Shown here one piece after another: positions 12,287 to 13,165 of a DNA stretch of 64,000 nt; the first letter of the stretch is position 1; each line of letters opens with the position of its first letter. The stretch is taken from assembly GCA_905479265.1 (NCBI GenBank), contig CAJQLX010000025.1:1-64000 (forward strand). The letters are read 5' to 3'. The notes beneath the pieces are model-generated. The model ran no database searches, was not told where the DNA came from, and was given only the letters and a program-made list of their open reading frames with translations. The stretch is from an uncultured Alphaproteobacteria bacterium (GTDB taxonomy: Bacteria; Pseudomonadota; Alphaproteobacteria; UBA7985). The position numbers and the translations under genes were made by a program.

Positions 12287-13165
12287 TTGATTTCCTTTGG
12301 CCGGATTACGAGCGCATTTGTGCGCCGTGCAATTGCTGTAACGTTGCTGCTGGGCTTGTCTGCCTGTGCGCAAAAAAACGAACCCAAGCAAGAAATACGC
12401 GTGACCGAGTTCGCGATGGCGCAACGCGCTGCGAGTTTGGAGAAGGTGCGGCCCTATGGGTTGTTCCGGCAAGCGGGCCGGGAATGGGAAAAGCTGGAGA
12501 TGACGCCCGAAGAGCTGGCGGCTCCCGGGCGTCGCTGCATCCGTCAGAACAACTACTGGTGCGTAAAAACCCCGCCAACCGAGCGTTGGCGTGGACAAGT
12601 GGGCGAAGACAACTCCGGCCACGCGATTTTTGCTGACCCCGTCTATTCCGCTCGAGCCTTTGCGCGGCTGATGCGGAATTACCGCTTCAAGCATGAAATT
12701 ATCACGGCGCGAGAGCTCGCCATGCGGTATGCGCCACCAAGCGATTGTATTGGGACGCTGAGCTATTGCCCCGTGAGCACAGCGACGCCTATTCCCCGCA
12801 ATTGGACGCGGGGCTCGATGGATGGAAAGACCGTCGCCTATACGGAAACCCAGCCCAGCAGTGCGTTCCAGCGTGCGAAGACCTCGGCCTGTGAAACGCC
12901 GGTGTTGTATTGTCCCCGTGGCTTCAACGACAGTCTGACCTATGCCTCGGCTTTGGCAAAGGCTGTGGGCGCCCGGTCGATTGATCAAAACATTGGTTTG
13001 TTTGATCGCGCAGGTTTGCTGCACTACGCCCGCGCTCAAAAGCTTTATCAGGCCATGGCGCGGTACGAGATGGGCGCCGATTATGCTGTTGATCCGACGC
13101 TAATCCGGCGCGGTATGGTGATGGAGGCGCAAGACTACCTCACCGACAAGGGCCGCTTGCACTAG
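12287..13165 (+). CDS. Lipoprotein with P5-like phage structural domain and three Cys pairs
   Basis: The 292-residue product has a lipoprotein signal peptide with lipobox LSAC (Cys27), so the mature protein is probably anchored in the outer membrane facing the periplasm. From residue 82 it resembles a family known mainly from phages and prophages as structural protein P5-like: IRQNN (85-89), WRGQVGEDNSGHAIF (101-115), a YxxRAxARLMRNY helix (120-132), and ITARELAMRYAPPS (139-152). In phage relatives the last block is followed by an N-x-T/Y segment, here NDSLTYASALAKAVGA (214-229), but an insert of about 60 residues separates the two. Six cysteines form three close pairs: 84/92, 154/161, 202/209. 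I infer the relationship from memory of the motif pattern. The start is a TTG with GGGAGCTGGG upstream; a GTG at 12320 is the alternative. Function unknown. Confidence 0.7.
   Translation: MISFGRITSAFVRRAIAVTLLLGLSACAQKNEPKQEIRVTEFAMAQRAASLEKVRPYGLFRQAGREWEKLEMTPEELAAPGRRCIRQNNYWCVKTPPTERWRGQVGEDNSGHAIFADPVYSARAFARLMRNYRFKHEIITARELAMRYAPPSDCIGTLSYCPVSTATPIPRNWTRGSMDGKTVAYTETQPSSAFQRAKTSACETPVLYCPRGFNDSLTYASALAKAVGARSIDQNIGLFDRAGLLHYARAQKLYQAMARYEMGADYAVDPTLIRRGMVMEAQDYLTDKGRLH

Follow-up and report, generated by a model that had tools for sequence, protein, structure and literature searches.

A chromosomal alphaproteobacterial lipoprotein with a cysteine-bearing P5/Enc34-type lysin domain, probably a peptidoglycan glycosidase

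The P5 protein of corticovirus PM2, formerly called structural, has been reassigned as an endolysin (PMC9502842). The related Enc34 domain (PHA02564) is reported to be active on Gram-negative peptidoglycan and adopts a permuted lysozyme-like fold. Its authors propose a catalytic signature composed of Trp79, Tyr95 and Glu131 and infer an N-acetylglucosaminidase (PMC8943055). The M4Lys domain degrades peptidoglycan with GlcNAc loss, which corresponds to a glucosaminidase activity, and an endopeptidase activity was also inferred (PMC7143992). Enc34 itself is a phage enzyme, encoded in a lysis cassette and carrying a C-terminal transmembrane domain (PMC8943055). The same domain is found in Vinavirales homologues of PM2 P5, of which the corticovirus homologue PG21 is included in our alignment (PMC9502842). 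The open-licence literature on PHA02564, Enc34 and PM2 P5, as far as it was accessible, deals with phage proteins and no bacterial lipoprotein version was seen there, which is weak evidence of absence. A paper on a Xanthomonas effector refers to Enc34 by citation only and has no bearing on the family.

The window, i.e. the whole stretch of DNA analysed here, is 64,000 nucleotides long and comes from an uncultured marine alphaproteobacterium (contig CAJQLX010000025.1). It carries an intact gene of 292 codons at 12287-13165 on the forward strand. A preliminary description, made from the sequence of the window, had read this gene as a lipoprotein with a domesticated P5-like phage domain; the open reading frame, its TTG start, the lipobox and the six domain cysteines were all found at the positions it gave. 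Conservation was counted in 56 representative sequences, 17 of a bacterial form defined by its first cysteine pair (Cys-form) and 39 of the phage type. The features are as follows.

12287..13165, forward strand: coding sequence, 292 aa, TTG start, for a lipoprotein with a P5/Enc34-type (PHA02564) lysin domain (open reading frame and translation).
12287..12367, forward strand: predicted lipoprotein signal peptide and lipobox L24-S25-A26-C27 (sequence; lipobox kept in orthologues and paralogues).
12533..13123, forward strand: P5/Enc34-type lysin domain, residues 83-279 (PHROG_873, hhalign with the phage P5 profile, Foldseek to 7q47 and viral models).
12536..12562, forward strand: first cysteine pair, C84/C92 (17/17 Cys-form, partly by construction since this motif defined the label, vs 0/39 phage-type).
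12728..12730, forward strand: Y148, site of the proposed catalytic Trp (Enc34 W79; aromatic in 16/17 Cys-form and 39/39 phage-type).
12746..12913, forward strand: insert bounded by C154 and C209, with C161 and C202 within (cysteine positions; absent from the phage profile and from the form found in genomes G007, G009 and G010).
12941..12943, forward strand: Y219, equivalent of Enc34 Y95 (Tyr in 14/17 Cys-form and 39/39 phage-type).
13067..13069, forward strand: E261, equivalent of the proposed catalytic Enc34 E131 (Glu in 17/17 Cys-form and 39/39 phage-type).

The protein starts with a signal peptide and a lipobox, including the invariant Cys at +1 of bacterial lipoproteins, and is predicted to be lipidated. 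A linker of about 55 residues precedes the domain, which extends from about residue 83 to 279. An ATG at the homologous position of the orthologue L019 supports the TTG start. Both the lipobox and the domain cysteines are kept in the congeneric orthologues. Residue +2 of the lipobox is Ala, not Asp. In E. coli, the Lol rule directs lipoproteins with a +2 residue other than Asp to the outer membrane. This suggests an outer membrane location, by a rule that may not hold in the host lineage. Once exported and sorted, the protein would face the periplasm, probably anchored in the outer membrane.

The P5-like blocks noted earlier are real rather than due to chance. The PHROG_873 'endolysin' profile matches residues 83-152 (E=4.2e-12). 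A hhalign comparison of the bacteria-only profile (A2) with the phage-only profile (A3) yielded a probability of 99.4% (E=5.7e-21) over 130 columns, covering both sides of the insert, including the block after it; a comparison of A2 with A1 was set aside since these alignments share sequences. In a search of its own genome with the phage-type profile, the lipoprotein gene was the sole match (E=8.5e-15) and no second copy was detected. The phage profile itself matches the Enc34 endolysin structure 7q47 (E=4.8e-36) and the internal protein Gp29 (9vvp, E=2.1e-38), and the bacterial profile reaches 7q47 directly (E=0.0011). Phage homologues identified by tblastn are 31-40% identical among the matches listed. 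They include epsilon15-like head proteins, corticovirus-like PG21, Vibrio phage D526 and BcepGomr gp71, which immediately precedes two holins, Rz and Rz1, in a lysis cassette. Homologues of the PM2 P5 type differ from the lipoprotein in being virus-encoded, and those examined carry neither signal peptide nor lipobox. In gp15 of Uetakevirus epsilon15 and other large virion proteins (PHROG_873, PHROG_992) the domain is recognisable (35-37% identity over residues 83-161) but, in the epsilon15 type, forms part of an internal head protein longer than 800 aa. The P5 of phage phi6 is also a lysin and was the first candidate considered, but it was the family of PM2 P5 and Enc34 that the sequence comparisons confirmed.

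Pfam and NCBIfam scans of the lipoprotein revealed no family even at E<=10, and similar scans of the phage homologues (A3) gave nothing convincing, though the domain is widespread in phages and solved as 7q47. Using phmmer, the single lipoprotein sequence retrieved only chance matches from the PDB, so that a profile is needed. The profile searches proposed with the first reading therefore returned a P5-like match and no match to an unrelated lipoprotein family in Pfam, PHROG or NCBIfam. In the broad sense of significant profile similarity over the domain, the protein is of the P5/Enc34 (PHA02564) type. Phage P5 in the strict sense carries the N-terminal motif RGIRNNNPGN, which reads RCIRQNNYWC here (with Cys in place of both Gly and Asn, and Tyr-Trp in place of Pro-Gly), and is encoded in a virus genome or prophage, whereas this gene, the sole domain copy, lies in core chromosomal synteny. 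As judged from the sequences, the Cys-form protein is a sister family to the phage P5 lysins, not phage P5 itself. The initial view of P5 as a phage structural family holds as to the P5 likeness but not as to a merely structural role, since PM2 P5, Enc34 and M4Lys are described as lysins (PMC9502842, PMC8943055, PMC7143992).

The full-length AlphaFold2 model has a pLDDT of 62, which trimming to the domain (residues 78-292) raised to 80.8 (pTM 0.68). In Foldseek searches with the domain model, 7q47 accounted for the only PDB matches at E<=0.001 (E=6.6e-5, probability 1.00, TM(target) 0.62-0.68) and the best viral matches (BFVD) were virion/lysozyme proteins. The model exhibits the permuted all-helical lysozyme-like fold of 7q47, a match that is not independent of the sequence match because the input alignment contained phage rows. 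The likeness to Enc34 comprises the fold, a whole-domain alignment, the catalytic Tyr and Glu and an aromatic residue at the third position. However, Enc34 has neither such cysteine pairs nor the 155-212 insert, retains an intact RGIRNNNPGN motif, and carries Trp where the lipoprotein has Tyr.

Along the 7q47 alignment, W79, Y95 and E131 correspond to the Trp of RWAPP, the Tyr of N-x-T-x-x-Y and the Glu of HENG, and the alignments map them to Y148, Y219 and E261. The Glu and Tyr of the signature are therefore present while the Trp is replaced by Tyr. This replacement is within the natural range of the family, because Tyr occupies this position in 10 of the 39 phage-type sequences (27 have Trp and 2 Phe); the aromatic residues of the Cys-form are 8 Trp, 7 Tyr and 1 Phe. 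Further phage-conserved motif residues are altered (G84C, N92C, HENG to YEMG). We consider an envelope-anchored, disulfide-braced peptidoglycan glycosidase to be the best explanation of these data and a fairly probable one. Its catalytic domain, a homologue of the phage P5/Enc34 lysin with a fold related to GH73/GH23, would cleave the glycan strands in the peptidoglycan of the cell itself. The role of catalytic acid would fall to E261, and Y219 together with the aromatic Y148 would position the sugar. By analogy with Enc34 and M4Lys, the bond specificity may be that of an N-acetylglucosaminidase.

The main rival, which appears unlikely, is a non-catalytic or strongly attenuated descendant, i.e. 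a lipoprotein that is braced by disulfides and binds peptidoglycan to tether or sense the wall rather than to cleave it. Such a role would agree with the Trp to Tyr change, the loss of the H and N of HENG, the position of the insert beside the groove, the three divergent relatives without catalytic Tyr (see below) and the presence of other glycan hydrolases in the genome. However, a pure binder would not need an acid, and the catalytic Glu is invariant in the Cys-form though its neighbours vary; Y219 and the aromatic character of position 148 are also largely maintained. The earlier suggestion that the protein acts on peptidoglycan is likely to be right. The genome also contains SLT, MltA and GH73 genes, so the role of the lipoprotein may be redundant, one of several. 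A lipid-anchored glycan cutter with a lysozyme fold that works in a similar way is the MltC-type lytic transglycosylase (GH23), whose catalytic Glu is in an equivalent place (PMC8943055). MltC differs by its SLT domain and unpermuted helix order, and the SLT profile (PF01464) which defines this type did not match the lipoprotein (Pfam, E<=10).

A divergent subgroup of Cys-form genes includes one on a Roseibium plasmid (L024:4779-5627), one on a Cupriavidus plasmid (L025:5836-6615) and L035 (G235). Its members have 8-10 cysteines and keep the catalytic Glu but have lost the catalytic Tyr; integrase genes occur near the two plasmid-borne copies. Since these three relatives lack Y219, catalysis may not be common to the whole Cys-form clade.

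The six domain cysteines are at positions 84, 92, 154, 161, 202 and 209. As previously noted, the second Cys of each pair listed in the preliminary description follows an aromatic residue (W91-C92, Y160-C161, Y208-C209). In the phage motif R-G-I-R-N-N-N-P-G-N, the positions of C84 and C92 are occupied by the Gly and the last Asn, respectively. Domain cysteine counts are even (4, 6, 8 or 10) in 16 of the 17 Cys-form sequences, a property that does not result from construction, while those of the phage type scatter (0, 1, 2, 3, 5). DsbB-family genes are present in the genome. A conserved and even cysteine number, as expected of a disulfide protein, supports disulfides in the Cys-form domains, and the disulfide stabilisation proposed at the outset is probable; the bonds would brace the fold in the oxidising periplasm.

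Compared with the phage domain, the insert occupies about residues 155 to 212, between the catalytic aromatic and the catalytic Tyr. Only the third pair had been placed within it; that placement is right but incomplete, as all four cysteines 154, 161, 202 and 209 are within the insert or at its edges. The form present in G007, G009 and G010 has no insert and four cysteines, so the insert was either gained or lost in a lineage. In another alphaproteobacterial family (f73), the insert of the Cys-form varies in length and is closely flanked by one Cys on either side, the two being about 55 to 186 residues apart. In both sequences counted, the second Cys precedes the catalytic Tyr by ten residues, as C209 does Y219. 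The f73 inserts (loci L142-L149, L180-L183 and L186) vary widely in length and have a low-complexity look. As four-cysteine relatives keep one Cys on each side of the insert, pairing of 154 with 209 and of 161 with 202 is favoured over the 154/161 and 202/209 pairs first suggested. The 154-209 bond would close the insert and 161-202 would, by elimination, form an inner rung; the position sums of this nested arrangement are equal (154+209 = 161+202 = 363). The 84-92 disulfide would lie at the N-terminal loop and the two others would close this lineage-specific insert beside the groove.

The gene is found in all 11 genomes of the order (11/11), with orthologues 73-85% identical. Five congeneric genomes share the same gene order: rpoA, rplQ, (GlcG in some), SCO1, FAD oxidoreductase, the lipoprotein gene, a beta-eliminating lyase (LtaA-like), RluD and RpoH. 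The neighbours are different in other families of the order but are likewise cellular genes. The location outside prophages and the occurrence of orthologues in relatives, both raised in the first account, are thus borne out. Nei-Gojobori dN/dS between the window gene and congeneric orthologues is about 0.055-0.083 where Ks is finite, Ks being high; the gene is under strong purifying selection. These observations led us to reject the view that it is a recent prophage remnant or a cargo gene without cellular function. The homology to phage virion and lysin proteins could have pointed in that direction, but the conserved synteny with ribosomal, rpoA and rpoH genes, the low dN/dS, the presence throughout the order, the separate clade and the failure to confirm any Cys-form relative in IMG/VR make it extremely improbable. 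The product is probably a housekeeping cell-wall enzyme, which would participate in wall remodelling.

Several local variations were observed. A paralogue 48-51% identical (L013 / L177:9140-10435 in G005:C12; L014 in G002:C2; L015 in G004:C23) occurs in three of the six congeneric genomes, but not in that of the window; the copy counted has six domain cysteines. The G005 paralogue adjoins genes for a Sel1-repeat protein and Tat-translocase-like proteins. In one congeneric genome, about 2.8 kb of additional sequence separates the lipoprotein gene from that of the beta-eliminating lyase (L022:4465-7275). In a sister family (G006), a GH18-family (chitinase-like) gene is located two genes from the orthologue (L171:6383-7633) and possibly encodes another glycan enzyme.

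Cys-form genes also occur elsewhere in alphaproteobacteria, as identified in sampled class and phylum searches, and on the Roseibium and Cupriavidus plasmids. The distribution in family f73 is patchy (profile match in 25/80 genomes, the cysteine motif not being confirmed in each). When IMG/VR was scanned with the Cys-form alignment, none of the 108 pattern matches could be confirmed as a relative. With a mixed alignment, 167 relatives were found in viral contigs, and the 80 kept of these 167 gave only phage-type representatives. A role directed against phages or rivals, in which the lipoprotein would occupy sites or partners of phage lysins of the same fold, or be released to lyse competitors, is highly improbable. 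It is suggested by the fold shared with lysins that serve phage entry and exit and by the two plasmid-borne relatives. However, no defence, toxin-antitoxin or secretion genes were identified among the housekeeping neighbours, no immunity gene was recognised, and the gene is in every genome of the order, unlike patchy defence genes.

In the tree of the 56 representatives, the Cys-form constitutes one side of a branch with support 100/99. This unrooted tree, in which the cysteine columns were included and several branches are long, separates bacterial from phage forms cleanly but without direction. The initial 'domesticated phage' proposal is plausible, and simpler than the reverse in view of how widely the phage type is spread. 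The reverse course, an old bacterial periplasmic glycosidase whose lysin domain was taken up by phages, would fit any function of the protein. We give it some weight as a minority view: the tree does not nest the Cys-form within phage diversity, but the phage type is far more widespread, and beyond some alphaproteobacteria and two plasmids no Cys-form gene was found.

We tentatively propose, at somewhat less than even confidence, an undescribed and vertically kept bacterial envelope family. In this family, the P5/Enc34 fold would serve as a lipid-anchored, disulfide-locked peptidoglycan glucosaminidase of alphaproteobacteria. The insert next to the active-site groove, bounded by disulfides and variable between lineages, would perhaps gate or regulate cutting. 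If this is true, a bacterial sister clade with an intact catalytic Glu would represent an added class of alphaproteobacterial cell-wall enzymes, and 'hypothetical' genes of the Cys-form kind outside prophages could be re-annotated. It would also show how a lysin fold adapts to the host envelope through a lipid anchor, disulfides and an insert, and would provide a testable case of genes passing between the lysis systems of phages and the wall metabolism of their hosts.
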